This document shows, in pieces, positions 721 through 20,690 of a DNA stretch of 22,118 nt. Where the stretch lies: the IMG/VR virus record IMGVR_UViG_3300046028_005069, positions 1-22,118 of that record. One strand, written 5' to 3'. The position numbers and the translations under genes are program-made. A model generated the notes under the pieces. It was not told the DNA's origin and did not search any database. It saw only the letters and a list, made by a program, of their open reading frames with translations. The stretch is from a virus. How positions within the stretch are numbered: the first letter of the stretch is position 1; each line of letters begins with the position of its first letter.

Positions 721-728
721 TATATTTG
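721..728 (+). promoter_or_regulatory. Bacteroidetes-type -7 element for the replication operon
   Basis: TATATTTG matches the Bacteroidetes -7 consensus TAnnTTTG exactly and lies 28 nt before the ATG at 757. No clear -33 TTG was found at the expected distance. It lies just downstream of the GCTGT repeats, so binding there could also regulate it. Confidence 0.6.
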
Positions 729-756
729 CTTTTATTAATTATTAATTATTTATTCT

Positions 757-3338: not shown

Positions 3339-3340
3339 TT

Positions 3341-4850: not shown

Positions 4851-4852
4851 TT

Positions 4853-5110
4853 ATGAATAAAATAATAGGTAAAAATAACACGTTGGAAATTGTACCAAAT
4901 TTTGTACAAGATATAAACATAAAAGGCAATAATTATAAATGCGTTTTAAATTCAATATCTAAAAATTTACATATGAATAGTATTAAAATAGATAGAGTTG
5001 AAAAGTTTCATTGGTTTTATACGTTTAAAATTTTAGATGCACCAATTAAAAAAATAATATTTGAAATCGATTATAACGATAAATTAATAAAAACAATTAC
5101 AAATGATTGA
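4853..5110 (+). CDS. Hypothetical protein in replication operon
   Basis: Eighty-five residues, not recognised. It is rich in Asn, Lys and Ile with short alternating segments suggesting a small alpha/beta protein (for example FHWFYTFKILDAPIKKIIFE). No cysteine cluster, membrane span or nucleotide-binding motif is visible. It begins two bases after the VRR-NUC stop and overlaps the next start by eight bases, so it is a translated member of the operon. A replication accessory role is inference from context only. Confidence 0.65.
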   Translation: MNKIIGKNNTLEIVPNFVQDINIKGNNYKCVLNSISKNLHMNSIKIDRVEKFHWFYTFKILDAPIKKIIFEIDYNDKLIKTITND

Positions 5111-5450
5111 AACCACATTAAACGAATTAATAACAGTTGTAAGCACTTACTATAATCTAAATAATAAAGATTTAACAGGTAAGTCAAGGAAGCAACACAT
5201 AGCAAACGCAAGGTTTATTTACTTTTATTTAGCAAGAAAATACACAAAAGAAACATTAAGCGAAATAGGTGCCAAAGTAAATAGAGGACACGATACAGCA
5301 TTACACGGAATAAGAACAATTACAAACAGAAAAAATTTATATGCTGAAGATAAAAAAGAATTGTATCTTATTGAAAGAGGTATAAATATTCCATTAATTG
5401 CTAAAAATATTGACTTATTAGCTATGTGTAAAAGTTACGCTATTATTTAG
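5103..5450 (+). CDS. Stand-alone DnaA domain IV-like DNA-binding protein
   Basis: A 115-residue protein whose first 75 residues match the C-terminal DNA-binding domain of the initiator DnaA: YYNLNNKDLTGKSRKQHI with the basic helix KSRKQHIANAR (27-37), an LSEIG helix (52-56), and GHDTALHG (62-69), which corresponds to the DnaA signature RDHTTVLHA that contacts the DnaA box. No AAA+ domain is present (full DnaA is about 450-470 residues), so it binds DNA but cannot hydrolyse ATP. About 40 extra residues follow the domain. It could recognise phage origin sites, compete with host DnaA at DnaA boxes, or act as an operon regulator. It is the last gene of the replication operon. Confidence 0.8.
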   Translation: MIETTLNELITVVSTYYNLNNKDLTGKSRKQHIANARFIYFYLARKYTKETLSEIGAKVNRGHDTALHGIRTITNRKNLYAEDKKELYLIERGINIPLIAKNIDLLAMCKSYAII

Positions 5451-5509
5451 AATTATTATAAATTACAAAAATAATTGATAAAATATTTTTTTATTAGAAA
5501 GTAACCTTA

Positions 5510-5517
5510 TACATTTG
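5510..5517 (+). promoter_or_regulatory. Bacteroidetes-type -7 element for the small-gene cluster
   Basis: TACATTTG, an exact TAnnTTTG match, in the gap 5451-5552 and 36 nt before the ATG at 5553. It begins a second early unit of tiny genes. No terminator hairpin is seen between the replication operon and this site, so read-through is likely. Confidence 0.6.
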
Positions 5518-5552
5518 CTTCATCAAATAATAACAATTTAAAACAAAACATT

Positions 5553-5639
5553 ATGAAAACAAAACTAACATTATCAGACGTATTACTAATCACAGTTTAT
5601 TGGGTAGTATTTTTTACAATAACATTTTTTATTTTATAG
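5553..5639 (+). CDS. 28-residue single-span membrane peptide
   Basis: Starts at an ATG behind an A-rich leader (aacaaaacattATG) and ends TAG TT ATG into the next gene. After the short polar start MKTKLTLSD the rest is one hydrophobic, aromatic segment (VLLITVYWVVFFTITFFIL), enough for one membrane span with the N-terminus probably cytoplasmic. It is the first gene after the 5510 promoter. The function is unknown; phage micro-membrane proteins of this kind include exclusion and host-modifying factors, but nothing here identifies the role. Confidence 0.5.
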   Translation: MKTKLTLSDVLLITVYWVVFFTITFFIL

Positions 5640-5641
5640 TT

Positions 5642-6040
5642 ATGAAAAAAGAAAAAGAAAAAGGTATTACTATTACTCTCGTTGGTAAACAAGAACCTAA
5701 CATAATTAATAATTGGTTAAATGAAAATGGAAATATTGAAATAGCTAAACAAGTTGAAAAGGAAGCTAAAGATTTATGCGAACAAGAAACGCTTGAAGAA
5801 GCTGCAGAAAGAATATTATTTGAGAACACTAAAAATTTAGAAATAAGATACAGAGGTGGTAGAGATAGTGTTATTAAATCTATGTTAGATATTGCTAAAT
5901 GGCAACAAGAACAAGACAAGAAAATGTATAGTAAGGAAGAGGTAATAAAATTCGGGCAATGGCTAACCTTATTTGATAACTTACGAAACGAAAATAAATA
6001 TGTAATAAAACAACTACTTAAACAATTTAAAAACAAATAA
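5642..6040 (+). CDS. Conserved phage hypothetical protein with AKWQQE motif
   Basis: The ATG at 5642 is preferred over an in-frame ATG at 5600, because 5642 follows the upstream stop by two bases (TAG TT ATG) while the 14 extra residues would overlap the membrane peptide gene. The 132-residue product is charged and helical, with a segment ending AKWQQEQDKKMYSKEEV. That pattern is common in small early proteins of Bacteroidetes phages and prophages. No enzyme motif is visible and the function is unknown. Confidence 0.65.
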   Translation: MKKEKEKGITITLVGKQEPNIINNWLNENGNIEIAKQVEKEAKDLCEQETLEEAAERILFENTKNLEIRYRGGRDSVIKSMLDIAKWQQEQDKKMYSKEEVIKFGQWLTLFDNLRNENKYVIKQLLKQFKNK

Positions 6041-6043
6041 GAT

Positions 6044-6184
6044 ATGCCAACAACAAGATACGAAATTTACATTAAAGGATTATTATGCTTTGTAAATAAT
6101 ACTCGACAAGAGTTTGAAAAAGTTTGTTCAGATATGGATACACTAAAAATTGATTACACAGCTAAAATTATTAATTTAATTTAA
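6044..6184 (+). CDS. 46-residue hypothetical protein
   Basis: Begins three bases after the previous stop (TAAgatATG) and ends TAA. The sequence starts MPTTRYEIYIKGLLCFVNN, continues with an acidic middle (RQEFEKVCSDMDTLK) and ends KIINLI; it contains two cysteines. There is no recognised motif. Support comes from tight packing with its neighbours and an intact frame between them. Confidence 0.45.
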   Translation: MPTTRYEIYIKGLLCFVNNTRQEFEKVCSDMDTLKIDYTAKIINLI

Positions 6185-6198
6185 AAACAGATAACATT

Positions 6199-6360
6199 AT
6201 GAAACAGACAGACACATTTTACGAATTTTGCAACCGATTAAGAGGCTATAAAATTTACACACGAAAAGGAATTGAAGTACCTAAATTTCTGCTCTATTGG
6301 AATGGTTTAAACCCAATACAAGTAAGAGAAAAGTTTATATTAGAAGAACGAATTAGATAA
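6199..6360 (+). CDS. 53-residue hypothetical protein
   Basis: An intact small frame between neighbours, starting behind the A-rich leader aaaaacagataacattATG. It is basic and aromatic (FYEFCNRLRGYKIYTRKGIE) and ends in a charged helix (NPIQVREKFILEERIR). It has no homologue that I recognise. Part of the compact early small-gene cluster. Confidence 0.45.
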   Translation: MKQTDTFYEFCNRLRGYKIYTRKGIEVPKFLLYWNGLNPIQVREKFILEERIR

Positions 6361-6376
6361 GTAAATATTTAAAATT

Positions 6377-6493
6377 ATGGAACAATATGAAAAAATATTA
6401 AGTTTAGTGCTTCAAACAGCTTTTACAGTGTTAGTGCTAACTGCAGTAACAGCAGTAATAATTTCTGCTTACAATAATTTTAAAAACAAATAA
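6377..6493 (+). CDS. 38-residue single-span membrane peptide
   Basis: Starts MEQYEKILS, followed by a continuous hydrophobic stretch rich in Val, Leu, Ala and Thr (about residues 8-31) and a short polar, basic end (NNFKNK). This is a one-span membrane topology. It ends two bases before the next ATG (TAActATG). It is the second tiny membrane peptide in the cluster; the function is unknown. Confidence 0.5.
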   Translation: MEQYEKILSLVLQTAFTVLVLTAVTAVIISAYNNFKNK

Positions 6494-6495
6494 CT

Positions 6496-6618
6496 ATGGA
6501 ACAAGCAATCAAATTTAACGAATGGATGAAGAAGATTTGTAACATCCATTACAGCGACAACGAAAAAATGAATAAAGCATTTATTAAAATAACTGAAGAA
6601 GCAAAACTTAAAAATTAA
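6496..6618 (+). CDS. 40-residue hypothetical protein
   Basis: A short charged protein starting MEQAIKFNEWMKKICNIHY and ending in a lysine-rich helix. It is two bases from the upstream stop and four bases from the downstream start, with the recurrent TAAaactATG junction. Not recognised. Confidence 0.45.
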   Translation: MEQAIKFNEWMKKICNIHYSDNEKMNKAFIKITEEAKLKN

Positions 6619-6622
6619 AACT

Positions 6623-6700
6623 ATGGGAAATCAAACAACAACAACAACACAAAATTTAGAATACTTAAATTACATCTATATGATGAATAAAAAAAATTAA
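6623..6700 (+). CDS. 25-residue hypothetical peptide with poly-Thr run
   Basis: A very short frame beginning MGNQTTTTTQNLEYLNYIY, with five consecutive ACA codons. It is bounded on both sides by the same TAAaactATG junction, which is the main reason to think it is translated. It could instead be a spacer. Confidence 0.35.
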   Translation: MGNQTTTTTQNLEYLNYIYMMNKKN

Positions 6701-6704
6701 AACT

Positions 6705-6995
6705 ATGAAAATTATTAAAGAATACCCACATAGAAATATGAAAAGAATTCAATACGATGGAAATGATGTTGAATTATTAAAAGCAAGATTTTCTTTTAGA
6801 GTTAAACAAGAAACTATTGAAAAGTTATGCAACTGGCTTTTAAATAACAACGAAACAATAGACGCTGACGATTGTTATGACGGTGGAAGCGGATGGCAAG
6901 GAACAAATTTTCATATAAAAGGAGAAGATCTATCACTTAATGGTTATTGTTTAAGCGATAGCACAATTGAAAATTTTTTAAACAAACATAATTAA
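6705..6995 (+). CDS. Hypothetical protein, 96 aa
   Basis: Starts at the ATG of a TAAaactATG junction. It has a basic N-terminus (MKIIKEYPHRNMKRI), a helix (ETIEKLCNWLLNNNE), then an acidic, glycine-rich turn (DADDCYDGGSGWQGTNFH) and a C-terminal helix. No recognised domain. It is followed four bases later by the lipoprotein gene. Confidence 0.6.
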   Translation: MKIIKEYPHRNMKRIQYDGNDVELLKARFSFRVKQETIEKLCNWLLNNNETIDADDCYDGGSGWQGTNFHIKGEDLSLNGYCLSDSTIENFLNKHN

Positions 6996-6999
6996 AACT

Positions 7000-7279: not shown

Positions 7280-7310
7280 AACCGAATTAATTTTTAGTTC
7301 GGTTTTTTTT
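7280..7310 (+). terminator. Strong Rho-independent terminator after lipoprotein gene
   Basis: An 11-bp stem, AACCGAATTAA (7280-7290) with TTAGTTCGGTT (7294-7304), containing one T·G wobble and a 3-nt TTT loop, runs directly into eight Ts. It ends the early small-gene unit and separates it from the sigma-factor promoter three bases downstream. Confidence 0.85.
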
Positions 7311-7312
7311 AT

Positions 7313-7320
7313 TACATTTG
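7313..7320 (+). promoter_or_regulatory. Host-type -7 promoter element for sigma factor/terminase unit
   Basis: TACATTTG (TAnnTTTG) lies between the terminator and the ATG at 7328. Only seven bases separate it from the start codon, so transcription would begin at or next to the ATG and the mRNA would be leaderless or nearly so. Confidence 0.65.
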
Positions 7321-7327
7321 CTTTTGT

Positions 7328-7819
7328 ATGTTAGAAAAACTTTTTAAATACCACAAGCTTTTGGTTGAAATGGCAAAGTTATTTGATAATAATAATGCCG
7401 AGGATATAGTACAGGATGCTTATATAAAGTTAGCAATGTACGCCACCGAAGAAAAATGTTTTATAAATGGTAAACCTAACAAAAACTATTTATTTATTGT
7501 AATTAGAAATACATACCTTTCACTTTACAAAGGTAAATTTATAGTAGTGGATTTTATAGATAGCGAAACAACTGAAGATTTTACAGAAACAGTTGAATTA
7601 GATTGGTATCGTTTCAGAACATTATGCGAAGCTGAAGTAAACAGTTGGGATGCATACGATAAAAAACTATTTACATTGTATCGTGATAGTGATATGTCAA
7701 TGCGAAAGTTAGCAAAAGAAACTGGTATAAGTTTTGTATCTATATTCCATTCATTAAAAGCACACAAGAAAAAATTAAGAGAATTATTTCAAGAAGATTA
7801 TAACAATTTAGAATTATGA
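7328..7819 (+). CDS. ECF-like RNA polymerase sigma factor, candidate late-gene activator
   Basis: A 163-residue protein with the two-domain layout of short sigma-70-family factors. Region 2 is residues 1-65, with the core-binding and -10 recognition helix AEDIVQDAYIKL (24-35) followed by YLFIVIRNTYLSLYKGK. Region 4 is residues 111-152: DKKLFTLYRDSDMSMRKLA, then the helix-turn-helix ETGISFVSIFHSLKAHKKKL. An acidic linker joins them. It would bind host core RNA polymerase and redirect it. It has its own host-type promoter, overlaps the next gene by four bases (ATGA) and lies just upstream of terminase and the late structural units, which share a distinct promoter-like element. A late-gene sigma role is inference; an Sfp/RinA-like helix-turn-helix activator is the alternative. 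Confidence 0.78.
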   Translation: MLEKLFKYHKLLVEMAKLFDNNNAEDIVQDAYIKLAMYATEEKCFINGKPNKNYLFIVIRNTYLSLYKGKFIVVDFIDSETTEDFTETVELDWYRFRTLCEAEVNSWDAYDKKLFTLYRDSDMSMRKLAKETGISFVSIFHSLKAHKKKLRELFQEDYNNLEL

Positions 7820-10045: not shown

Positions 10046-10072
10046 AGGAGTGGGGTGTCCCTGCTCGAGCAG
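10046..10072. other. GC-rich segment with tandem small hairpins and a 12-bp perfect palindrome
   Basis: In very AT-rich DNA, a short stretch from GGAG (10048) holds a GGG/CCC mini-hairpin (10053-10061, loop TGT) followed at once by the palindrome CTGCTCGAGCAG (10061-10072). A third hairpin, the terminator, comes next. Three structures in a row just after terminase could be an mRNA element or a DNA site such as a packaging (cos/pac) site. Function unknown. Confidence 0.4.
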
Positions 10073-10105
10073 AAGCCAGACTAAATTGTTTGGCTTTTGT
10101 TTTTA
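10073..10105 (+). terminator. Rho-independent terminator after terminase unit
   Basis: A 9-bp stem, AAGCCAGAC (10073-10081) with GTTTGGCTT (10088-10096), has one G·T wobble and a 6-nt loop TAAATT. It is followed by the T-rich TTGTTTTTA. It ends the sigma/terminase unit immediately before the first late promoter-like element. Confidence 0.75.
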
Positions 10106-10110: not shown

Positions 10111-10143
10111 TACAAAAAACCAACTTTAATGTTTTTAAATAAA
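10111..10143 (+). promoter_or_regulatory. Late promoter-like element, copy 1 (tail unit)
   Basis: TACAAA at 10111-10116, then 12 nt and ATGTTTTTAAATAAA at 10129-10143. Counting TTAAAT as a -10-like box, the spacer from the TACAAA box is 18 nt, a sigma-type spacing. It lies between the terminator and the first tail gene. The same 18 bases TTAATGTTTTTAAATAAA occur again exactly at 17291 and 18467. Confidence 0.6.
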
Positions 10144-10148
10144 TGAAT

Positions 10149-10832
10149 ATGAAGCTACAAATAGAAATACCTGAAACGCTAAACGAAATCAGATTAGAGC
10201 AGTACCAAAAGTACACTAAACTAATTGAGGATAACGAAGCATCTGAATTTGTAAATCAAAAGACAATAGAAATATTTTGTAATCTACCATTAAAAGATAT
10301 TGCAAAGATTAATTATAATTCGGTTAATGAAGTATTACAGCATTTAAACGAACTATTTGCAAAGAAGCAACTATTTAAACAAACGTTTGAATTAGGTGGA
10401 AAACAATTTGGTTTCATTCCTAATTTAGAAAATATATCTTTTGGCGAGTATGTAGATTTGGATTCGTATTTAAAAGACGTAAGCGACTGGCACAAAGCAA
10501 TGGCGGTAATGTTTAGACCAATTAAAAAAGATGTGAAAGGTTTGTATCTAATTGAAGATTATAACGGAACGGAACAATATGCTGAAGTAATGAAGTTCGC
10601 ACCTTTGGATGTTGTATTTGGTGCAATGGTTTTTTTTTACCATTTAAGCAACGAATTACTGAACGCTATGATAAACTATTTACAAGTAGCAGCAACGGAA
10701 CACTCGGAGACTATTCAAGAGAAAGCCAATTTGCTACCAAATGGGGTTGGTATCAATCAATATATGGAATCGCTAAAGGAGAACTTACAAAGTTTAACGA
10801 AGTTACAAGACTTTCACTACACGAATGTCTAA
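10149..10832 (+). CDS. Tail assembly chaperone-like protein (gpG-like, frame 0)
   Basis: The ATG at 10149 lies 5 nt after the late element, matching the spacing at 17314 and 20697; an in-frame ATG at 10143 overlaps that element and would add two residues. The product (227 residues) has LNEIRLEQYQKYTKLIE near its start, then FGFIPNLENISFGEYVDLDSY and KAMAVMFRPIKKD. From memory these patterns recur in proteins early in the tail module of Bacteroidetes siphophages. A -1 frame overlaps its last third and carries a protein-like extension, as in lambda gpG/gpGT chaperones, which guide tape-measure assembly. The chaperone call is inference from layout, since the tape measure is four genes downstream rather than adjacent. 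Confidence 0.6.
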   Translation: MKLQIEIPETLNEIRLEQYQKYTKLIEDNEASEFVNQKTIEIFCNLPLKDIAKINYNSVNEVLQHLNELFAKKQLFKQTFELGGKQFGFIPNLENISFGEYVDLDSYLKDVSDWHKAMAVMFRPIKKDVKGLYLIEDYNGTEQYAEVMKFAPLDVVFGAMVFFYHLSNELLNAMINYLQVAATEHSETIQEKANLLPNGVGINQYMESLKENLQSLTKLQDFHYTNV

Positions 10833-10900
10833 CGTGGCTTACATTTGAAAAAGAAAAAACTGAAATAGAAATAGCAAATATAAAACGAAATGGTGTATAG
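10586..10900 (+). CDS. -1 frame overlapping ORF, probable frameshift-made C-terminal extension (gpGT-like)
   Basis: This frame is open from just after a TGA at 10583 to TAG at 10898 and has no ATG. Its second half looks like genuine protein: WGWYQSIYGIAKGEL (from 10742), then FNEVTRLSLHECLTWLTFEK. It ends 11 bases inside the next gene, the tight overlap seen between real genes here; without it, a 57-base gap would break the packed unit. Because it lacks a start codon and overlaps the chaperone-like gene in the -1 frame for 247 bases, -1 frameshifting is the best explanation. Slippage at the T tract 10631-10637 would yield about 250 residues. The exact slip point is uncertain, because the extension is less protein-like between 10637 and about 10700. 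Confidence 0.55.
   Translation, partial: SNEVRTFGCCIWCNGFFLPFKQRITERYDKLFTSSSNGTLGDYSRESQFATKWGWYQSIYGIAKGELTKFNEVTRLSLHECLTWLTFEKEKTEIEIANIKRNGV
10631..10637 (+). other. Candidate -1 slippery heptamer T TTT TTT
   Basis: In frame 0 the codons read GTT TTT TTT TAC, giving the ideal X XXY YYZ heptamer T TTT TTT within nine Ts (10630-10638). It lies inside the stretch where both frames are open. A later, less canonical slip site near 10700-10745 cannot be excluded. Confidence 0.4.
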
Positions 10901-11312
10901 CATTATAAATAAGATTAAAGAAGCGTTACTTGAAGAACCTTTTGTAAACACAGCTACAGAGGGTGACATATTCGAAGTAGATTTAGCCAAGCGTACAATG
11001 TTTCCTTTGTCGCATATAATGGTAAACACTGCAACGCATTTAGGCAACGTAATTCAATTTAATATTACTATCTTAATGATGGATATATTAAACCAAAAAG
11101 ATGAAACGAATAAAATTGATATTTGGAACACGCAATTAGCAGTTGGTATACGTGTAATGGATAGGTTAAATCGTGGTGATTTGCGTGATGATTACTGGGA
11201 ACTAACAGGCAATCCAAGTTTTGAACCTTTTACTGAAAGATTTGAAAACGATTTAGCAGGTTGGGCTTTAACATTTGATGTAAGCGTTAAAAACGATGGT
11301 ACAATATGTTAG
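10890..11312 (+). CDS. Phage tail/neck protein (tail terminator- or completion-like)
   Basis: A 140-residue protein beginning MVYSIINKIKEALLEEPFVNT. Its middle, FPLSHIMVNTATH, is followed by beta strands and a C-terminal stretch with FEPFTERFENDLAGWALTF. From memory it resembles a family found between chaperone-like and gp10-like genes in Bacteroidetes siphophages. Size and place fit a tail-terminator or head-tail completion protein, but no diagnostic motif is seen. It overlaps the -1 frame ORF by 11 bases and the next gene by 7, so it is coupled within the tail unit. Confidence 0.55.
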   Translation: MVYSIINKIKEALLEEPFVNTATEGDIFEVDLAKRTMFPLSHIMVNTATHLGNVIQFNITILMMDILNQKDETNKIDIWNTQLAVGIRVMDRLNRGDLRDDYWELTGNPSFEPFTERFENDLAGWALTFDVSVKNDGTIC

Positions 11313-11815
11313 ATAACAAAAATACAAAAGGATATCTTAATTCGTTTGCAAAGTACGTTATACAACAAAGTAGAAGTAATTTAACAAAGGGCGGTAAAAA
11401 CGTAGATAAAAAGTTATACAATAGTTTAGATAGCCAAATTGAAGTTGGTGCAAATAGTTTTCGTATGGCTTTCTTAATGGAAAATTACGGGGAGTTTCAA
11501 GACAAAGGAGTTTCAGGAACGCAAAGAAAATATAACACACCATTTAGCTACAAAACAAAACGACCGCCTTTGAAACCTATTACCGAGTGGGTAAAGAAAA
11601 GACGTTTTCAATTTAGAAAAGAAGATGGTAAATTAATGAGTTATCAAAGCACAGCGTTTTTAGTTAGGCAAGGTATTTTTAAGAATGGAGTTAAACCCAG
11701 TTTATTTTTTACAAAACCATTTGAGAAAGCGTTTGAACGTTTGCCTGATGAATTAATTGAAGCATACGGTTTAGACGTTGAACAATTTTTACAATATACA
11801 ATTAACAAGAAATGA
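11306..11815 (+). CDS. HK97 gp10-like neck/tail completion protein (candidate)
   Basis: One hundred sixty-nine residues. The segment MENYGEFQDKGVSGTQRKY followed by SYKTKRPPLKPITEWV, and later IFKNGVKPSLFFTKPFEKAF, is like the gp10-type family: 'facing' residues, a KxRPPLxxI segment and an FFxKPFExAF C-terminal helix. These proteins join the tail to the head or complete the tail tip. It overlaps its neighbours by 7 and 4 bases. The assignment is by pattern and place in the operon, so the precise role is uncertain. Confidence 0.6.
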   Translation: MLDNKNTKGYLNSFAKYVIQQSRSNLTKGGKNVDKKLYNSLDSQIEVGANSFRMAFLMENYGEFQDKGVSGTQRKYNTPFSYKTKRPPLKPITEWVKKRRFQFRKEDGKLMSYQSTAFLVRQGIFKNGVKPSLFFTKPFEKAFERLPDELIEAYGLDVEQFLQYTINKK

Positions 11816-12831
11816 AAAAGATATTTGTTAGAAGTCCGTACTTTATTACAATAGATGAAGCAGGGCAAACAGGAAGTAAAATTGAAGTATTTATTTGGAA
11901 CAAAGGAACAACCGAACCAACTACGCCTACATATACTTTAACTAAAAACATTCCAAGCGTAGAGCAAACAGAAACGAATTATAATATAGCAAACTATGCA
12001 AAGGAATATATTAAACCTATTGCACCAACTTCTGTAACTGTACCAACGCAAGAAGAAAATAACACGTGGTGCTATTGCAAAGTAAAAAGATATAAGATTG
12101 TAAATACTACAGCAACGCTTTTAGATACTGAGACTTTTGTTTGCTTAAATGGTTACACGCAATATTCAAATGGATATAATCAATCAAATGTAGCTACTGC
12201 AACACCATTAGTAAACACAAATATTACATACTATAAAAGTTCTGCAAACAATTATATTAATGTTTTTATAGAAGATGTTCAAAGTGGTATTTATTGGAGT
12301 AATGGAAATGAAAGTCAATTTTTTGATAATACAGAATTTTCATTATGGAAGTTACCAATTTACGGAAATGCTTTTTTAGATTATGCACCTTACACAAACC
12401 CAAGAATATTTAGTTTAAAAGTTACAGAACTTTGCGAACCAAAATACACACCAATTATATGCACGTTTATAAATCGTTTTGGTGGTTGGCAATATCTTAC
12501 ATTCTTTAAAGCTAATTCGCAAAGCATAGAAACAACAAATAAAGAATTTCAACTACTACCAAGCAACGTAAATTATAATGCGTTACAAGGGCAGAAAAGA
12601 ACGTTTAACCAACAAGGTAAAAGAAAAGTAAAATGTAACACAGGTTGGGTTAATGAAAATTATTTCGATTTAATTCAGGATCTACTTTTAAGCGAAGTTG
12701 TTTTATTAGATGGCAAACCTGCAATAGTTAAAAGTCAAAGTACTGAATATAAAACGCATTTAAAAGATAAGAATATAAACTACGAAATTGATTTCGAATT
12801 TAACTACGGACTTATAAACGATGTAATATAA
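11812..12831 (+). CDS. Tail/baseplate structural protein
   Basis: A 339-residue protein rich in Thr, Asn and Tyr with mostly beta character, starting MKKIFVRSPYFITIDEAGQT, which opens an Ig-like or jelly-roll-type region. The C-terminal third contains FGGWQYLTFFKA and KVKCNTGWVNENYFDLIQDL, a pattern I associate with tail-tip/baseplate proteins of Flavobacterium prophages. It overlaps the upstream gene by four bases (ATGA) and the next by one. It probably packs with the 771-residue protein at the tail tip; this is inferred from adjacency. Confidence 0.6.
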   Translation: MKKIFVRSPYFITIDEAGQTGSKIEVFIWNKGTTEPTTPTYTLTKNIPSVEQTETNYNIANYAKEYIKPIAPTSVTVPTQEENNTWCYCKVKRYKIVNTTATLLDTETFVCLNGYTQYSNGYNQSNVATATPLVNTNITYYKSSANNYINVFIEDVQSGIYWSNGNESQFFDNTEFSLWKLPIYGNAFLDYAPYTNPRIFSLKVTELCEPKYTPIICTFINRFGGWQYLTFFKANSQSIETTNKEFQLLPSNVNYNALQGQKRTFNQQGKRKVKCNTGWVNENYFDLIQDLLLSEVVLLDGKPAIVKSQSTEYKTHLKDKNINYEIDFEFNYGLINDVI

Positions 12832-15146
12832 TGAAAGTTGCATTATACATATACACCGAAGATTACGGAAGTAATACTAATACTACAGTAAACGCTTTTA
12901 AAAGTCGTGTTATTGCAGATGGTGGAACGTTTGAAGCGTTTGGTTGTTGCGTAGAAGCTATAAACGATTTGGGCGGTTCGTTTGGTAATGTAACAACTGC
13001 AAAACGTATTGAGTTATTTGATGATGAAAAAATTAGTTTAACTTCTTCTATTCAAAACATAAACGATATATCAAAAGTATTTACAGATTATTCTCAATCG
13101 TTTACTATTCCTGCAAGTGAAACAAACAATCGTATATTTAAACATTGGTACGAAAACGCATTAGACAATGGTTTCGACCAACGACAAAGATATAAAGGAT
13201 ATATTGAAATTGATACGCAAGTATTTAGAACAGGGCAATGGCAGTTAGAAAGTGCAAGTGTAAAAAATAATCGTGTTGAAGATTATAAACTTACTTTTTA
13301 TGGAGTGCTAAAATCTTTAACGGATAAATTTGGTGAGGATAAATTAAAAGATTTAGAAACGTTAAACGATTACACTATCAATTACACAGGTGCAGTAGTA
13401 AAAGATAAAATTACAACTACATCTGATAGTAATGTTTTATTCCCATTAATTTCAAGTAATAGGGTTTGGCAGTACGGTGGTGGTGGCTCACAAGATATTA
13501 GTCAAAATTCACACCGCATACATTACACCGAATTATTCCCTGCATTAAAAGTAGCCAGAATATTTGATGCAATAGAAAGTAAATACAATATAAATTTTAA
13601 CGGAAACTTTTTAACACAATCAAGATTCCAAAAAGCTTATTTATGGTTAAAAAATAAGGATGCATTTACTCCATTAAGTAAAAAATTATTATTGAATTAT
13701 GAAAATATAAGCAATCAAAATTCAGTATTTGAAATATATGATGATTACTATGTTATAAATACCAATAATCTTACAGGTGGTAATACTTATGCAGGTGGTG
13801 CTGTTTTATTGACTTTGTCAGTTTCTACAAATTGGCAGGTAAGCATTTTTAAAGATGATGTTTTTTATTATGTTTTAAATGGTACAGGCACAGCAATTAA
13901 TATTAGTGCAGGTAATATAAACGGAACTTATAAAATATATTTAAGCACGGCTCAAGCGTGTACATATTCAGGAAGTATATATGGTATAGTACAAGAATAC
14001 GACTCAACAACTAATACACTTGTAAATATTACTTCTGATGCTTTAGTTATAGATGGTACAATTACGTCAGATTTAGATTTACCAAGTTTTACGCCTGATA
14101 TGAAAGTATCGGATTTCTTTAGTGGTATTTTAAAAATGTTTAATCTTACAGCGTTTAGTTTTGATGAAGAAAATTATACTTTAGAACAATTGGAAAACTG
14201 GTACTATCAAGGTGGTATAAAAGACTTTTCAGAATATTGCGTCACAGATTTTGATTACGAAAGAATTAAACCATACAAGAAAGTAAATTTTGAATACGAG
14301 AAAAGTGAAAGTTTTTTAAATAAAAATTATTCAAATGCTAATCAAAAAGAATATGGAAATTTAAGTTATCCGTTTAATAACGATGGTTCAGATTACAATA
14401 TTAAACTACCATTTGAAAATTTAATGTTTAATAAATTTACAGGTGAAAATTTACAAGTTGCTTATTCTTTAAAAAGTGATTTCACAAAGTACATACCAAA
14501 ACCAGTAATATTATATCAATACGAAAATACAAGTTGTGATTTTTATTTTAACAATGGAACTACAACAAGCAATATAACAAATTACAATGTTATGGGGCAG
14601 GATGTAAACTATCAATCTGAAATACATACTTTAAATTGGGGTGTTGAATTTAGTACATACACATTAAACGCAATTTCAAATACATTATTTAAAGATTATT
14701 ATTTTGACTATTTAAACAACTTATATTCTTTAAAGTCAAGAATGGTAAAAGTTGCAATGCGTTTACCTTATTCAGAGCTATTAGCGTTGCGTTTAAACGA
14801 TAGAATTGTAATACGAGATAAAAGATATATTATAAATAGTTTTACTACGGATTTAGACACGTTTGAAAGTAAGTTTGAATTGATACAAGATTTTAGAACT
14901 TTAACATTTAATAATTCGCTTTTTGTTGCATTGGATAATACTTCTAAAACATTTAGAATAAATACAACAAGCAGAGAACCTTTGACGTGGAGTATTTTAA
15001 ACGATCCAACTGGACAAATAATAACTATAACAAATGGTGCTGATTATGTAGAAGTAAGCACAAAAGCAAACACTACAGGAACGCAAAAGATTTATAGTAT
15101 AGAAAGCAATAATAACGATATAATTGTAATAACACAAACAGCGTAA
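12831..15146 (+). CDS. Large tail-tip/baseplate protein with C-terminal BACON-like domain
   Basis: A 771-residue protein. Residues 26-40 carry RVIADGGTFEAFGCC, a motif shared with the protein encoded at 20697. Residues of about 60-260 have a conserved-looking block (FTIPASETNNRIFKHWYENA, then VFRTGQWQLESASVKN) typical of phage tail-tip proteins in this host group, followed by beta-rich segments. Residues 700-771 resemble a BACON domain: a short strand, PLTWSIL with the conserved Trp, DYVEVSTKANTTG, and a final strand ending VITQTA. BACON domains are linked to glycan or mucin binding and occur in Bacteroidetes phages such as crAss-like phages. Host-surface recognition is therefore likely for the C-terminus. 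It overlaps the next small gene by one base. Confidence 0.65.
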   Translation: MKVALYIYTEDYGSNTNTTVNAFKSRVIADGGTFEAFGCCVEAINDLGGSFGNVTTAKRIELFDDEKISLTSSIQNINDISKVFTDYSQSFTIPASETNNRIFKHWYENALDNGFDQRQRYKGYIEIDTQVFRTGQWQLESASVKNNRVEDYKLTFYGVLKSLTDKFGEDKLKDLETLNDYTINYTGAVVKDKITTTSDSNVLFPLISSNRVWQYGGGGSQDISQNSHRIHYTELFPALKVARIFDAIESKYNINFNGNFLTQSRFQKAYLWLKNKDAFTPLSKKLLLNYENISNQNSVFEIYDDYYVINTNNLTGGNTYAGGAVLLTLSVSTNWQVSIFKDDVFYYVLNGTGTAINISAGNINGTYKIYLSTAQACTYSGSIYGIVQEYDSTTNTLVNITSDALVIDGTITSDLDLPSFTPDMKVSDFFSGILKMFNLTAFSFDEENYTLEQLENWYYQGGIKDFSEYCVTDFDYERIKPYKKVNFEYEKSESFLNKNYSNANQKEYGNLSYPFNNDGSDYNIKLPFENLMFNKFTGENLQVAYSLKSDFTKYIPKPVILYQYENTSCDFYFNNGTTTSNITNYNVMGQDVNYQSEIHTLNWGVEFSTYTLNAISNTLFKDYYFDYLNNLYSLKSRMVKVAMRLPYSELLALRLNDRIVIRDKRYIINSFTTDLDTFESKFELIQDFRTLTFNNSLFVALDNTSKTFRINTTSREPLTWSILNDPTGQIITITNGADYVEVSTKANTTGTQKIYSIESNNNDIIVITQTA

Positions 15147-15289
15147 TGATAAAGAATATTTTAGATATGCTACCCTATGCACAATTAGGACAAAGCGAAT
15201 TAATCGATATAGCAAAAGGAAAAAACAAACTACCTGAAAATTTAAAGGAACTTAAAAAAGCAATGCAATGGCAATTAAAAAGACAATAG
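15146..15289 (+). CDS. 47-residue hypothetical protein before tape measure
   Basis: Starts at the TAATG overlap with the tail-tip gene and overlaps the tape-measure start by 22 bases, so it is tightly packed between two clear genes. The protein starts MIKNILDMLPYAQLGQSELI and ends in a basic helix (NLKELKKAMQWQLKRQ). Proteins of this size occur just before tape-measure genes, but I do not recognise this one. Confidence 0.5.
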   Translation: MIKNILDMLPYAQLGQSELIDIAKGKNKLPENLKELKKAMQWQLKRQ

Positions 15290-17268
15290 AAATTGATGTA
15301 AGCAGTCAAGGTGCAGTAAGTGGAATTGATAATATTTCTAATTCTATTGAGCAAACAGATAAAGCCACGCAATCGTTAAGAAGTCAATTAAGACAAGCAC
15401 AAGCAGATGTAGCGGAGTTATCTGATAAATTCGGTGCTACTTCTAAAGAAGCTATTGAAGCTGCTAAACGTGCAGGGGAATTAAAAGACGCTATTGGCGA
15501 TGCAAAAGCCTTAACCGATGCGTTCAATCCTGATGCTAAATTTAATGCGTTAAGTGGTTCGTTAAGTGGTGTGGCAAGTGGTTTTAGTGCAGTCGAGGGT
15601 AGTTTAGCGTTAGCAGGTGTACAAAGTGAAAACCTACAGGAAACAATGGTACGTTTACAAGCTGCAATGGCACTTTCGCAAGGACTTCAAGGTTTAGGAG
15701 AAAGTATCGACAGCTTCAAACAAATGGGAGCTGTTGCAAAAAACGCATTAAGTGGTATTAGAACAGGAATTGCTGCAACAGGTATTGGTGTTTTGTTAAT
15801 TGCTTTGGGTGCGGTTGTTGCTTATTGGGATGATATCAAAGAAGCGGTTAATGGAGTAAGTGCAGAGCAAACAGCCTTAAATGAAAAAACGCAAGCCAAT
15901 TTAGATGCAGAGCAAAAGAAACTTGACACAATAGGTAGCCAAGATAACGTACTTAAATTACAAGGTAAGAGCGAAAAGGATATTTTAAAACTTAAAATTG
16001 CTCAAACAGACCAAGTAATTAAAGCAACTGAAAATCAAATTGTGCAAAATGATATAACTGCAAAGGCACAAATTGAAGCAGCAAAAAGAAACAAAGAAAT
16101 ATTAAAAGGTACACTTGAATTTTTATCTATTCCGTTTCAAGCAGTATTAAAAACTATTGATAGTATTGGTTCGGCTATTGGAAAAGATTTTGGTTTATCT
16201 GCTGGATTTAGCAAAATATTAGACAAGGGTTCAAGTTTAATATTTGATCCTGAAGCAGAAAAAGCAGCAGCAGAAGCAACAAGAAAAGAAAGTTTAAAAA
16301 ATATTGAGAAACTTAAAAATGATAAAGCAGGGATGCAATTATCATTACAAGGAATTGATAAACAAGCGAGTACAGATGCAGCGGCTAAAAGAAAAGAAGC
16401 TAACGATAAAGAAATACAAGACGCTAAAGACAAAGCCGATGCTTTAGAACGTATTAGACAAGGCGAAATTGATACAGAAAAAGAACGTAGAGCAGAACAA
16501 TTAAGACAAGTACAAGAGGAATATAAAAACTTAATTGCTGAAGCTACAAAATACGGACAAGATACAACTGCGTTAAAAGAAGCACAACGTACAAAAGAAA
16601 AAGAATTAACAGATAGGTTTGCTGCTGAAGATGCAGAAAAGAAATTAGCAGAAGATGAAAAAGCAAAAGCAGACGCTCAAAAGAAATTAGATGATGAAAA
16701 ATTACTTTCAGAAGAAAAAATAAGAATTGCACAAGCAGAAGCAGAAGCAAAAAAAGCAATACAAGACGCTTCATTTGATGTAGCATCGCAAGGTATTAAT
16801 TTAATAAAAGGATTGTTTGAAAAAAACAAAGGCATTCAAAAGGGTGCTATGATTGCAGAAAGTGCTTTAGGTATTGCAAAAATTATTGTGAATACTCAAA
16901 CTGCTAACGCTGTAGCTGCTGCTTCACCATTAAATGCGGTAGACCCTACTTATGGTATTAGAGCAAGAATTATAAATACTGTTAGTGCAGGTATTGGTAT
17001 TGCAGCAAATATAGCAGCGACTGCAAAAGGTTTAGCCGCTTTAGGTGGTGGTGGTGCTCCGAGTGGTGGTAATGTTGGTGGTGGTGGTGGACAAGCTGCT
17101 GCACCTGCTCCTGCTCCACAATTTAACGTAGTAGGAAACACAGGAATTAATCAAGTAGCTGCAACGTTAGGACAACAGCAACCAGTACAAGCATTCGTAG
17201 TAGCAAACCAAGTTACAAGCCAACAAGCGTTAGATAGGTCGATAGTAAATAACGCAAGTTTAGGATAA
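15268..17268 (+). CDS. Tail tape measure protein
   Basis: A 666-residue protein with the usual tape-measure layout. It starts MAIKKTIEIDVSSQGAVSGI with helical, Gln/Ala-rich heptads, and has a hydrophobic helical segment at about 168-187 that could insert in the membrane. Long Lys/Glu/Ala coiled coils occupy roughly 195-270 and 330-520. A glycine/alanine/proline linker (593-618) precedes a final helical tail. Tape measures set tail length at about 0.15 nm per residue, giving about 100 nm. No lytic transglycosylase or peptidase domain is visible. It is the last gene of the tail unit; promoter copy 2 follows. Confidence 0.88.
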   Translation: MAIKKTIEIDVSSQGAVSGIDNISNSIEQTDKATQSLRSQLRQAQADVAELSDKFGATSKEAIEAAKRAGELKDAIGDAKALTDAFNPDAKFNALSGSLSGVASGFSAVEGSLALAGVQSENLQETMVRLQAAMALSQGLQGLGESIDSFKQMGAVAKNALSGIRTGIAATGIGVLLIALGAVVAYWDDIKEAVNGVSAEQTALNEKTQANLDAEQKKLDTIGSQDNVLKLQGKSEKDILKLKIAQTDQVIKATENQIVQNDITAKAQIEAAKRNKEILKGTLEFLSIPFQAVLKTIDSIGSAIGKDFGLSAGFSKILDKGSSLIFDPEAEKAAAEATRKESLKNIEKLKNDKAGMQLSLQGIDKQASTDAAAKRKEANDKEIQDAKDKADALERIRQGEIDTEKERRAEQLRQVQEEYKNLIAEATKYGQDTTALKEAQRTKEKELTDRFAAEDAEKKLAEDEKAKADAQKKLDDEKLLSEEKIRIAQAEAEAKKAIQDASFDVASQGINLIKGLFEKNKGIQKGAMIAESALGIAKIIVNTQTANAVAAASPLNAVDPTYGIRARIINTVSAGIGIAANIAATAKGLAALGGGGAPSGGNVGGGGGQAAAPAPAPQFNVVGNTGINQVAATLGQQQPVQAFVVANQVTSQQALDRSIVNNASLG

Positions 17269-17275
17269 AAAATAA

Positions 17276-17308
17276 TACAAAAAATAAATATTAATGTTTT
17301 TAAATAAA
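17276..17308 (+). promoter_or_regulatory. Late promoter-like element, copy 2 (prohead protease unit)
   Basis: TACAAA at 17276-17281, 12 nt, then ATGTTTTTAAATAAA at 17294-17308; the ATG of the protease gene follows 5 nt later. It is the sole feature of the gap 17269-17313. Confidence 0.6.
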
Positions 17309-17313
17309 AGCAA

Positions 17314-17916
17314 ATGAATTTAATAGAATTAATCATAGATGAAAAAGACGATTTAAGTGGTGTTGATGCTATTAGCGTAGTAGAAAACCCTGCTATTCAA
17401 TCGAACTTTGTGGCTTTAAAATCTGAAGAAATCAAATTAGCACAAGTAGATACTGAAAAACGTATTTTAATGGGTGCAGTTTTAATTCCTGAAAAGCCAA
17501 TTTTTAGAAGAAATGGCGAAGATGAATATTATATTTACTTTTCAAAAGATACAGTAAACAAAGCAAGTCAATTATTCTTTAAAAATGGTAATCAAAATAA
17601 TTGGACTTTAGAACACGATAAACAAATACAAGGTTTAACCGTTGTTGAAAGTTGGATAGTTGAGGATACTCAAAAGGATAAAAGTGCTATCTATAATTTA
17701 AGCGTTCCTGTTGGTACGTGGATGGCTTCGGTAAAAGTTGAAGATGATAACATTTGGAACGATTTTGTCAAGACAGGAAAAGTCAAAGGGTTTAGCCTTG
17801 AAGGATATTTTGCCGACAAATTAGAAACTAAAAAAGAATTAAGTAAACAAAATAGAAAAGATGAAATTATTAACCAAATTAAAAAACTTATTTATGAGTC
17901 AGAACACAAAAAGTAA
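17314..17916 (+). CDS. XkdF-like prohead serine protease
   Basis: Two hundred residues matching the XkdF-type phage putative serine protease family: MNLIELIIDEKDDLSGVDAI, then VENPAIQSNF, ILMGAVLIPEKPIFRR, YIYFSKDTVNKASQLF, and TLEHD with the candidate catalytic histidine at 101. VKGFSLEG carries the candidate catalytic serine at 161. It would cleave scaffold and possibly capsid protein during head maturation. It lies just before the scaffold and capsid genes. The ATG is 5 nt after late element 2. The C-terminal Lys/Glu-rich helix overlaps the start of the next gene by 23 bases. Confidence 0.85.
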   Translation: MNLIELIIDEKDDLSGVDAISVVENPAIQSNFVALKSEEIKLAQVDTEKRILMGAVLIPEKPIFRRNGEDEYYIYFSKDTVNKASQLFFKNGNQNNWTLEHDKQIQGLTVVESWIVEDTQKDKSAIYNLSVPVGTWMASVKVEDDNIWNDFVKTGKVKGFSLEGYFADKLETKKELSKQNRKDEIINQIKKLIYESEHKK

Positions 17917-18088
17917 GACAAGTCCAGTAGGTGGTAATCGTGGTTGCTTATGCGATGATGATACCTATAGCAAAGAATGCTGTAATGGCGAATTATTGCA
18001 TCAAGGTATTGGCAGAGAGTCCGACCAATCAAATGCAATAGTTACAAACACAAACGAACCAAGAACAATAACTAACACAAGAGGATAA
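17894..18088 (+). CDS. Small Cys-rich conserved phage protein
   Basis: The ATG at 17894 is chosen over an in-frame ATG at 17861 because the 11 upstream residues (MKLLTKLKNLF) overlap the protease gene and do not look like part of the conserved core. The 64-residue product contains GCLCDDDTYSKECCNGELLH followed by QGIG: four cysteines (C-x-C, then C-C) in a pattern I recall from small proteins near capsid genes of Bacteroidetes phages. It may bind metal or form disulfides in the virion. The role is unknown. Its gene overlaps the protease gene by 23 bases and the next ATG follows one base after its stop. Confidence 0.65.
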   Translation: MSQNTKSKTSPVGGNRGCLCDDDTYSKECCNGELLHQGIGRESDQSNAIVTNTNEPRTITNTRG

Positions 18089-18089
18089 A

Positions 18090-18440
18090 ATGACAACAGA
18101 AAAATTAGTGTTAAGTAAGTTATTTACTAAAACTGAATTAGGAACGCATAAAATTGATTTAGCAGCTATTGATGATATTAATAAAATTTTAGATGGTGCT
18201 TTAGCTAAACAAAGAAGTTTAATCGCACAAGGTTTAAAAATATCTGAAGGCTTATTGTCTTTAACTTCTGATTATCAAAAAGCATTAAGTTTATCTATTG
18301 ATGCAGCAAACAAAGCAAAAGATTTAGGTATTCCTGAAGCTGAAAGATTATTTAGAGTTAGGGGTGATGAAGCAAAAGATTTTGGTGGAATTGTAGGTAA
18401 AGTTTCAAATCAAATTGAAGCTGCTTTACGTTCTATTTAA
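18090..18440 (+). CDS. Hypothetical helical protein in capsid module
   Basis: A 116-residue, mostly helical protein with no cysteine: MTTEKLVLSKLFTKTELG, then IDDINKILDGALAKQRSLI and LSIDAANKAKDLGIPEAE, ending IEAALRSI. The heptad-like spacing suggests an oligomer. Located between the Cys-rich protein and the scaffold gene, it is probably a minor head or assembly protein; I do not recognise the family. Confidence 0.6.
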   Translation: MTTEKLVLSKLFTKTELGTHKIDLAAIDDINKILDGALAKQRSLIAQGLKISEGLLSLTSDYQKALSLSIDAANKAKDLGIPEAERLFRVRGDEAKDFGGIVGKVSNQIEAALRSI

Positions 18441-18451
18441 TACAAAAATAC

Positions 18452-18484
18452 AACAAGTATTTAGTATTAATGTTTTTAAATAAA
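18452..18484 (+). promoter_or_regulatory. Late promoter-like element, copy 3 (scaffold/capsid unit)
   Basis: AACAAG at 18452-18457, 12 nt, then ATGTTTTTAAATAAA at 18470-18484. The scaffold ATG follows 11 nt later. A second ACAAAAA run occurs 11 nt further upstream (18442-18448), about one helical turn. Confidence 0.6.
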
Positions 18485-18495
18485 ATTAATTAAAT

Positions 18496-19059
18496 ATGTC
18501 AAACGTAATTACAGAAATCAAAAAATTGCTGGGTATGGAAATCAAACTTGAGCAAATGACATTAGATAATGGTACTGTAATCGAAGCAGAAATCTTCGAC
18601 GCAGGTCAACCAGTATTTATTGTCAACAATGAAGATAGAGTAGCATTGCCTATTGGCGAGTACACTCTTGATAACGGAATGATTTTAGTTGTTGAAGTTG
18701 AGGGCGAAATCAAAGAAATTCGAGAAATGGCAGAAGAAGCACCCGTAGAGGAAGCACCTGCAGTTGAAGAAGAAGTTGAAGCAGCACAAACTACAGCACC
18801 TAAAAAAGTAATCGAAAGCACAGTTAAAGAGTCGCACTTTTCACAAGAAGAAGTAGATGCTTTAAAAGCTGAAATCGAAACACTAAAAACAGAATTAGCA
18901 AAACAAGTAGTTGTTGAAGAAGTTGAAGAAAAAGTAGAGTTATCTACGCAACCCTTAACACACAATCCAGAAGCTAGATCTGAAGTAAAACTAAATTTAT
19001 ATGCTCAAGGTAGAAAAGAAACTACTTTAGACAGAGTAATGAGAAAAATCGCTAACTAA
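18496..19059 (+). CDS. Scaffold-like protein
   Basis: One hundred eighty-seven residues directly upstream of the major capsid gene. The N-terminus (ITEIKKLLGMEIKLEQM, then LDNGTVIEAEIFDAGQP) forms beta strands. The middle is a very acidic, Glu/Ala/Pro-rich linker (about 80-110), followed by a coiled coil (FSQEEVDALKAEIETLKTEL) and a basic end (RKETTLDRVMRKIAN). Acidic, coiled-coil, basic-ended proteins before the capsid gene are typical scaffolds; the XkdF-like protease nearby would process it. Acidic and compositionally biased, it has no single diagnostic motif. Confidence 0.7.
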   Translation: MSNVITEIKKLLGMEIKLEQMTLDNGTVIEAEIFDAGQPVFIVNNEDRVALPIGEYTLDNGMILVVEVEGEIKEIREMAEEAPVEEAPAVEEEVEAAQTTAPKKVIESTVKESHFSQEEVDALKAEIETLKTELAKQVVVEEVEEKVELSTQPLTHNPEARSEVKLNLYAQGRKETTLDRVMRKIAN

Positions 19060-19072
19060 AAAATAAAAAAAA

Positions 19073-20002
19073 ATGCCAACAACAACAAGTATTACAACAA
19101 CTTACGCTGGGGAATTTGCAAAAAAATATATCTCTGCAGCGTTATTATCGGCTAACACTATCGAAAAAGGTGGTATCGAAGTTAGACCAAACATTAAATT
19201 TAAAGAAGTAATCAAAAGAATTGCTACAGATGCGTTATTAAAAAACGCAACTTGTGATTTCGATGCTACTTCTACAGTTACTTTAACTGAAAGAATTTTA
19301 CAACCTGAAGAATTTCAAGTAAACTTACAACTTTGTAAAAAAGATTTCCGTTCAGATTGGGAAGCGGTATCTATGGGTTACTCTGCTTTTGACTCTTTAC
19401 CACCTGCTTTTGCAGATTACTTAATTGCACACGTAGCAGCTAAAGTTGCTGAAGCAATGGAAGTAAACATTTGGAGAGGTGCTAATGCTACTGCAGGACA
19501 ATTTGATGGATTTGTACCTTTGGCTACTGCTGATGCATCTGTTATCGATGTAGCTGGTACTACTATTACTGCTGCTAACGTATTAGCTGAAATGGGTAAA
19601 GTGGTAGATGCTATTCCTGCTGTATTATACGGAAAAGAAGATTTATCTATCTACGTTTCTCAAAACGTTTACAGAGCGTATGTACGTGCTTTAGGTGGAT
19701 TTGGTGCAGATGGTTTAGGTGCTAATGGTTACGATGGAAAAGGTAACAATCAAACTATTGGAGATGTTTACTTCGATGGTGTTAAAATTTTCGTTGCAAA
19801 CGGATTGGCTAACAACTATATGATGGCTGCTCAAAAATCTAACTTATTCTTTGCTACAGGTTTATTAAACGACCAAAACGAAGTTAAAGTAATTGATATG
19901 GCAGATATCGATGGATCACAAAATGTAAGAGTTGTAATGAGAATGACAGGTTCAGTAAACTACGGTATCGGTTCTGAAATTGTACTTTACACTCCAGCAT
20001 AA
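19073..20002 (+). CDS. Major capsid protein (HK97-fold type)
   Basis: Three hundred nine residues, in the expected place after the scaffold gene and before a terminator. It starts MPTTTSITTTYAGEFAKKYI. Helical P-domain-like segments follow (FADYLIAHVAAKVAEAMEVN then IWRGA), then glycine-rich loops (GGFGADGLGANGYDGKGNNQ) and a final beta segment (VRVVMRMTGSVNYGIGSEI). From memory it matches major capsid proteins of Bacteroidetes siphophages. Gene starts in an A-rich leader 13 bases after the scaffold stop. High expression is suggested by the regular codon use and the strong terminator that follows. Confidence 0.85.
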   Translation: MPTTTSITTTYAGEFAKKYISAALLSANTIEKGGIEVRPNIKFKEVIKRIATDALLKNATCDFDATSTVTLTERILQPEEFQVNLQLCKKDFRSDWEAVSMGYSAFDSLPPAFADYLIAHVAAKVAEAMEVNIWRGANATAGQFDGFVPLATADASVIDVAGTTITAANVLAEMGKVVDAIPAVLYGKEDLSIYVSQNVYRAYVRALGGFGADGLGANGYDGKGNNQTIGDVYFDGVKIFVANGLANNYMMAAQKSNLFFATGLLNDQNEVKVIDMADIDGSQNVRVVMRMTGSVNYGIGSEIVLYTPA

Positions 20003-20023
20003 TTTTAATTAATAAATAACTTT

Positions 20024-20058
20024 GAATAGGTGGTGCATAAACACCGCCTATTCTTTTT
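20024..20058 (+). terminator. Rho-independent terminator after major capsid gene
   Basis: A 12-bp stem, GAATAGGTGGTG (20024-20035) with CACCGCCTATTC (20042-20053), has one T·G wobble and a 6-nt loop CATAAA. It runs into TTTTT. It isolates capsid expression from the downstream tail gene, at least in part. Confidence 0.88.
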
Positions 20059-20071
20059 AAACTAAAAAAAT

Positions 20072-20599
20072 ATGAGTTGTGATTTAACACTAGGGCGTAA
20101 AGAAGTTTGTAAAAATTCAGTAGGGGGTTTAAAAGCTGTTTATTTCGTTAATTATGGTGATGCTACAACGTACACTTACGATGCAACGAATACAGATGTA
20201 ATCGATGCAGTTGGTGGTACGCCTACAGCTTACAAATACGAATTAAAAGGTGCTTCAACTTTTACGCAAAATATAACTGCTTCAAGAGAAAACGGAACAA
20301 CGTTTTTTGAGCAAGTTTTAGAAATAACATTTAAAAAATTAACACCAAAAGACCACAAAGAATTAAAACTTTTATCTTATGGTAGACCGCAAGTTATTGT
20401 AGAAGATAACAACGGTAACTTCTTTTACGCAGGTTTAGAAAACGGAATGGATGTTACAGGTGGTACTGTAGTAACAGGTGGTGCAATGGGTGATTTATCA
20501 GGATATACTTTGTCTTTAACAGGACAAGAAAAAGTACCTGCTAACTTTATTGGTGATACTTTAACTGCTGCAGGATTTACAGTAGTAGTTGGTTCATAA
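20072..20599 (+). CDS. Major tail (tube) protein
   Basis: One hundred seventy-five residues, mostly beta. It starts MSCDLTLGRKEVCKNSVGGL; later segments include KYELKGASTFTQNI, SRENGTTFFEQVLEITFKKL, YGRPQVIVEDNNGNFFYAGL and GDLSGYTLSLTGQEK. From memory this is the pattern of tail tube-like proteins of Bacteroidetes phages; their fold polymerises as rings around the tape measure. It has no clear late element copy, only a degenerate TCTTTTTAAACTAAA at 20052-20066 overlapping the preceding terminator. Read-through of the capsid terminator may supply its mRNA. A terminator follows at 20621. Confidence 0.75.
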   Translation: MSCDLTLGRKEVCKNSVGGLKAVYFVNYGDATTYTYDATNTDVIDAVGGTPTAYKYELKGASTFTQNITASRENGTTFFEQVLEITFKKLTPKDHKELKLLSYGRPQVIVEDNNGNFFYAGLENGMDVTGGTVVTGGAMGDLSGYTLSLTGQEKVPANFIGDTLTAAGFTVVVGS

Positions 20600-20620
20600 A
20601 TTAGATTAATAATTAATTTT

Positions 20621-20652
20621 AAAAGCGTATCTTAATTGATACGCTTTTTTTT
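20621..20652 (+). terminator. Rho-independent terminator after major tail gene
   Basis: A perfect 11-bp stem, AAAAGCGTATC (20621-20631) with GATACGCTTTT (20638-20648), has a 6-nt loop TTAATT. It is followed by more Ts to 20652. It lies 6 bases before late element 4. Confidence 0.88.
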
Positions 20653-20657
20653 GCTTT

Positions 20658-20690
20658 AACAAAAAATCGATTTCTTTGTTTTTAAATAAA
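20658..20690 (+). promoter_or_regulatory. Late promoter-like element, copy 4 (portal unit)
   Basis: AACAAA at 20658-20663, 12 nt, then TTGTTTTTAAATAAA at 20676-20690, six nt before the ATG at 20697. Unlike the other three, the first base of the second box is T. It directly follows a terminator. Confidence 0.55.

Follow-up and report, generated by a model that had tools for sequence, protein, structure and literature searches.

A putative late promoter class of Bacteroidota siphophages and the candidate ECF sigma factor that may read it

A two-box element placed a short distance before the late gene units of a large group of Bacteroidota siphophages is strongly supported, by comparison of related genomes, as a phage-specific late promoter class, and we regard it as very likely that these promoters are read by a small ECF-type sigma factor which the phages themselves encode and which would act with the core RNA polymerase of the host. 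The element was noticed in the window, by which we mean the whole 22,118-nt stretch of DNA analysed here, an IMG/VR fragment of a siphophage-type genome; the original prediction of a phage-specific late promoter class is borne out by the position, strand and geometry that the element retains in relatives. We infer the link between sigma factor and promoter, the start sites and the timing of transcription from comparisons at the sequence level. No report of this promoter class was found in the literature searched. The scheme would provide a transcription plan for a very common and hardly studied group of Bacteroidota phages. For Bacteroidota genetics it would supply promoters together with a small candidate orthogonal sigma factor, and its many natural pairs of sigma factor and promoter would lend themselves to the study of changes in promoter specificity.

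The element in the window and in related phages

The pattern WACAAR-N12-WTGTTTTTAAATAAA matches the window four times, always on the + strand and at exactly the predicted positions (Table 1), with no further match; shuffled controls, which had been proposed alongside the prediction, gave no match in 100 dinucleotide shuffles. The block TTAATGTTTTTAAATAAA is identical in copies 1-3, as had been noticed, and the distances of 5, 5, 11 and 6 nt from the end of the element to the start codon in copies 1 to 4 are also as described, with an additional in-frame ATG at 10143 that overlaps the element in copy 1. The units that follow are indeed late ones, beginning with the gene next after terL (phrog_32199), the head protease, a scaffold-like protein and the gene in the pre-portal position, whose downstream neighbour, the 21124 ORF, is called portal from its position; terminator-like hairpins lie directly 5' of copies 1 and 4, in agreement with the claim that two copies follow terminators.

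Table 1. Coordinates of predicted transcription signals and of the candidate sigma factor gene in the window
Feature	Position	Strand	Basis and details
Host-type TATATTTG before early primase unit	721..728	+	TAnnTTTG match
Host-type TACATTTG before early small-gene unit	5510..5517	+	TAnnTTTG match
Terminator before sigma unit	7280..7304	+	Hairpin prediction
Host-type -7 element TACATTTG directly 5' of sigma gene	7313..7320	+	TAnnTTTG match
Candidate phage-encoded ECF-type sigma factor (163 aa), proposed late-promoter reader	7328..7819	+	Family models, PDB profile and fold matches, orthologs
Terminator between terminase unit and late promoter 1	10067..10102	+	Hairpin prediction
Predicted late promoter, copy 1	10111..10143	+	ACAA 10112-10115, 15-nt spacer, core GTTT from 10131; predicted start 10142 (+/-1); ATG 10143 or 10149
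Predicted late promoter, copy 2	17276..17308	+	ACAA 17277-17280, core from 17296; predicted start 17307; head protease ATG 17314
Predicted late promoter, copy 3	18452..18484	+	ACAA 18453-18456, core from 18472; predicted start 18483; scaffold-like ATG 18496, then major capsid
Terminator directly 5' of late promoter 4	20621..20648	+	Hairpin prediction
Predicted late promoter, copy 4	20658..20690	+	ACAA 20659-20662, core from 20678; predicted start 20689; gene ATG 20697, then portal-position ORF

Relatives were gathered by means of the major capsid protein, yielding at least 80 related viral loci, 19 of them with whole or near-whole records; the closest relatives of the window among cultured phages are P12024L and P12024S, two Nonlabens (Persicivirga) phages with 63% identity in terL and 34% in the major capsid protein. 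When the element was sought in 20 related records, a search that had been suggested as a check, it occupied the same positions before late genes, again on the coding strand and close 5' of the start codon, and it is kept down to a capsid identity of 34%. Lineage-specific patterns match the coding strand mostly 3-5 times per genome (about 0-0.9 expected), the matches lying at orthologous late positions and nearly always just 5' of a start codon (2 matches in G006; 0-3 in GTTA-type genomes, for which a stricter pattern was used, with further sites recovered in G011 and G014), and almost never the reverse strand, with one such match each in G019 and P12024L. Counted over distinct upstream regions, an ACAA at 26-45 nt from the following ATG is present in 35 of 36 for the 20697 family, 49 of 56 for the protease and 38 of 44 for the 10149 family; the corresponding counts for inner genes of the late operons are only 1/64 (gene 20072) and 1/42 (gene 11306). 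P12024L carries seven elements, before gp01, gp05, gp08, gp37, gp42, gp45 and gp46. Many long loci picked by the sigma protein alone again have the element before the post-terL gene and bring in ATTG as one more type of second box. When such loci were counted blind, class by class, with patterns that did not include ATTG and other new second-box types, the result was diagonal for the window-like classes and thin elsewhere.

The alignment of all sites led us to redefine the element as ACAA, a 15-nt spacer with no strong sequence preference, RTT and an A/T-rich stretch. Its bipartite nature and the ACAA box thus stand as first described, but the second conserved box is RTT (the TGTT part), 15 nt after ACAA, and not TTAAAT. 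Over spacer lengths of 8 to 23 nt between ACAA and RTT, a histogram peaks sharply at 15 nt with 128 cases, every other length having 3-39; G014, with 14 nt, and P12024L, in which most spacers are of 16 nt, are exceptions. The first box, ACAA, is constant across lineages, whereas the second box varies between lineages at the same positions (GTTTTTAAAT, ATTTTTAAA, ATTAATATA, GTTA or ATTG) and is alike within one genome, all four copies being identical in three genomes; most simply, each phage would have one late reader, which drifts along with it. The host TAnnTTTG is unchanged between these phages, and a drifting second box next to a constant host element therefore makes it likely that the late reader is phage-encoded.

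Two further patterns were discarded. An ACAA-N15-ATTA match before gene 11812, present in several relatives and in the window, is a coding coincidence within the conserved C-terminus of gene 11306, and the exact core TGTTTTTAAATAAA, used as a probe against all viral contigs, was not specific among the matches listed. The terminase genes of the window lack a late element, and their transcription probably comes from the sigma unit; in P12024L the element before gp37 lies upstream of the terminase. In some lineages (loci L224, L226, L228, L250 and L252) the small terminase gene, a terS homolog, is preceded by a fifth element (ACAA-N15-ATTTTTAAATTGA...) with a longer leader, which the window does not have.

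The candidate sigma factor and competing readings

The ORF at 7328-7819, which was absent from the original prediction, encodes, to judge from profiles and a structural model, a divergent ECF sigma factor. TIGR02937 (sigma70-ECF) matches 16 of 16 family members and TIGR02985 (the Bacteroidota model) 15 of 16, the window protein itself falling below the curated cut-offs of both (33.6 bits against 42.9 and 36.8 against 126.4, respectively); for Pfam region 2 it scores 17, below the cut-off of 24, and its P12024L ortholog gp35, only 26% identical to it, scores 25.2, above the same cut-off. Against the PDB, the family profile finds ECF SigL as its best match and other ECF sigma factors too, and the best-ranked fold matches of the AlphaFold model (mean pLDDT 84, pTM 0.42) are likewise ECF sigma structures. 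The model comprises two helical domains and a low-confidence linker at residues 71-83, and the 163-aa protein has the ECF layout of region 2 and region 4 only, within about 160-200 aa and with a flexible linker.

Syntenic orthologs occur in 15 of the 20 related records searched, the five without one being shorter fragments. In the window the gene stands behind a terminator and a host promoter of its own, and its position upstream of the terminase genes is conserved. The sigma gene, the terminase region and the late genes are retained in these phages, nearly all of which are missing most of the early genes tested. A scan of viral contigs for the sigma factor found more than 500 relatives, a lower bound. 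A tblastn search of the cultured-phage collection with the window protein gave none, and with P12024L gp35 matched only P12024L and P12024S; a genome scan gave only distant matches among those listed, and no host or prophage was found.

The early units were said to carry a different, host-type element, TAnnTTTG, and this we recover before early or middle units at three positions (Table 1) and, in the relatives examined, upstream of early units; in the window, G007 and G014 it lies immediately in front of the sigma gene. None occurs at the four late elements of the window, either in the motif listing or in the alignment. The primary promoter of Bacteroidota consists of a -33 TTTG and a -7 TAnnTTTG (PMC6847099), and the type of promoter used by the host is present before the early units of these phages and absent at their late elements.

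Not every reading of these data involves the phage sigma factor. The late promoters might be read by host polymerase and a host sigma factor, aided by a phage activator that sits on one box. Such activator-aided schemes exist in other phages, the link between sigma factor and promoter is a proposed one, and the phage has other ORFs for DNA-binding proteins, e.g. one with a DnaA-type HTH at 5103-5450. We nonetheless judge this reading unlikely: the elements of the window lack the TAnnTTTG that early units of the same genomes have, the DnaA-like ORF, unlike the sigma gene, is missing from nearly all relatives, and two boxes in a fixed 15-nt geometry are the type of promoter that a sigma factor reads.

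It is very unlikely that the element is instead a translation signal or an RNA leader element, its A-rich TAAATAAA before the ATG being the non-Shine-Dalgarno initiation region of Bacteroidota. A-rich sequence before the ATG does promote initiation in Flavobacterium johnsoniae (PMC6847099), but across copies 1-4 the distance from this block to the ATG varies while its distance to ACAA is constant, predicted RNA structures at the four sites are no stronger than those of shuffles, and the inner late genes are without the element. Repeated, conserved and intergenic as it is, the element might also be taken for the site of a phage DNA-binding protein that serves replication, packaging or silencing and not for a transcription start, a proposal that its single orientation, its invariable place a short distance 5' of the first gene of a unit and the two copies directly after terminators render extremely improbable. 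Chance likeness in A/T-rich DNA such as that of the window, or duplication of an intergenic segment, has a probability close to nil, being refuted by the shuffles and by the relatives, with spacers that are unrelated between the copies and boxes that are conserved.

Reading by the phage sigma factor would proceed as follows. Early in infection, the RNA polymerase of the host, carrying the primary sigma factor, would read the TAnnTTTG promoters, including the one before the ORF at 7328-7819, whose product, a small ECF-type sigma factor, would join the host core RNA polymerase; region 4 would bind ACAA as the -35 box and region 2 the RTT-A/T box 15 nt downstream as the -10 box, transcription would start about 7 nt beyond the RTTx core, and the late head and tail units would thereby be switched on. 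The start would fall on the A of the ATG in many relatives, giving a leaderless mRNA, and would leave leaders of about 1-13 nt in the lineage of the window.

A co-evolution test of promoter core and sigma factor was rejected as proof of this link, given that it does not separate the link from shared descent: in a partial Mantel test the promoter core correlates alike with the sigma factor (0.76) and with structural proteins (0.79). One pair is suggestive, G012 and G005, both 83% identical to the window in structural proteins, in which the sigma factors have 68% and 58% identity, respectively, and the promoter cores 100% and 78%; the nearer sigma factor thus goes with the identical promoter core. 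A search for T7-type RNA polymerase (PF00940) had no match in 16 records, and the control genomes gave no match either.

Predicted start sites and possible leaderless late mRNAs

At 42 sites, which come from one large set of relatives, exactly 7 nt separate RTTx from the ATG; this set was selected for an ACAA-to-ATG distance of 30 nt, at which that histogram has its highest single peak. In P12024L the distance from CGTTA to the ATG is exactly 7 nt in six elements and 6 nt in one. A usual bacterial transcription start consists of a pyrimidine followed by a purine. The base at -1 is T in 42/42 of the leaderless-type sites and in 63/122 of the other starts at the same loci (p 2e-10, a value overstated by the relatedness of the sequences), and since T at -1 in all 42 fits a pyrimidine-purine start, the ATG itself is likely to provide the first transcribed base. 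The fixed distance thus appears to predict leaderless late mRNA in many relatives and in P12024L, and this prediction can be tested directly in the latter, a cultured phage.

The same ruler, i.e., the start of ACAA plus 30, places the starts in the window at the positions given in Table 1 and predicts leaders of about 1 nt (7 nt if the ATG at 10149 is used), 7, 13 and 8 nt for copies 1-4. The suggestion that the late mRNAs may be leaderless consequently fares well for those relatives in which box and ATG are 7 nt apart, and for copy 1 if its ATG is that at 10143, but not for copies 2-4, for which leaders of 7-13 nt are predicted.

On balance, we lean slightly towards a broader proposal, namely that an abundant group of Bacteroidota phages, whose hosts mostly make mRNAs with leaders, produces leaderless late mRNAs from a phage-sigma promoter locked 7 nt from the start codon, with short leaders in some lineages, and that these phages would form a natural series in which the -10 specificity of one sigma factor drifts (GTTA, ATTG, ATTA, ATTTTTAAA, GTTTTTAAAT) and its -35 specificity stays fixed. 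Long leaders have been called unusual for phage transcripts (PMC5312081), and leaderless late mRNA is therefore not unheard of; none of the papers searched was found to describe a fixed 7-nt distance that holds throughout a phage group. In F. johnsoniae the -7 element lies 4-5 nt from the start and most transcripts have leaders of more than 10 nt (PMC6847099), unlike most of those expected from the late starts predicted here.

Comparison with known systems and genome context

The closest precedent is Salmonella phage 7-11 of the phiEco32 group, whose sigma factor SaPh711_gp47 reads a late two-box element, GTAAtg-(16)-aCTA, with a start 6-9 bp from the element, and in which early genes use the primary sigma factor of the host, related phages changing the promoter sequences and keeping the positions (PMC8948821). 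The plan in common would be a phage sigma factor, two boxes, a similar gap and late genes: here too the phage encodes a sigma factor and a shared element stands before late units and is absent from early ones, and the 7 nt from RTTx to the ATG in leaderless-type sites agree with the start distance in 7-11, the start here being predicted from sequence alone. The differences lie in the sequence (ACAA-N15-RTT), the Bacteroidota hosts, the siphophage type and unrelated gene order, and in the closeness of the start codon, 0-13 nt from where transcription is predicted to begin, which would couple promoter and start codon tightly. In phiEco32 itself, gp36, which is without region 4, reads middle and late promoters that have a single element, tAATGTAtA (PMC8948821); our phages resemble it in having a candidate phage-encoded sigma factor for non-early genes and differ in the two boxes and in the presence of a region-4-like HTH. 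The A/T-rich TTTTTAAATA stretch and the late class also recall phage T4. The T4 late promoter, TATAAATA, is read by gp55 and has no -35 box, whereas ACAA is the most constant part of the element described here and is sharply preferred 15 nt from the second box.

As to genome context, nearly all relatives are without the early genes at 1-6999 of the window (primase, helicase, DnaA-like), many late genes being 60-90% identical, and the early half of these genomes is subject to rapid turnover. The DnaA-like gene is a stand-alone ORF of this early region that comprises only the C-terminal DNA-binding domain of DnaA (PF08299, E 2e-19) and can be recognised in no more than a few of the related phages. 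Within a late unit, a strong terminator-like hairpin at 20024-20053 separates the major capsid gene from gene 20072 and is followed by no late element. Finally, phrog_24921 matches the protease ORF (17314-17916) with its N part and the scaffold-like ORF (18496-19059) with its C part, which suggests that in the lineage of the window a protease-scaffold gene may have been split by two small genes and a promoter.
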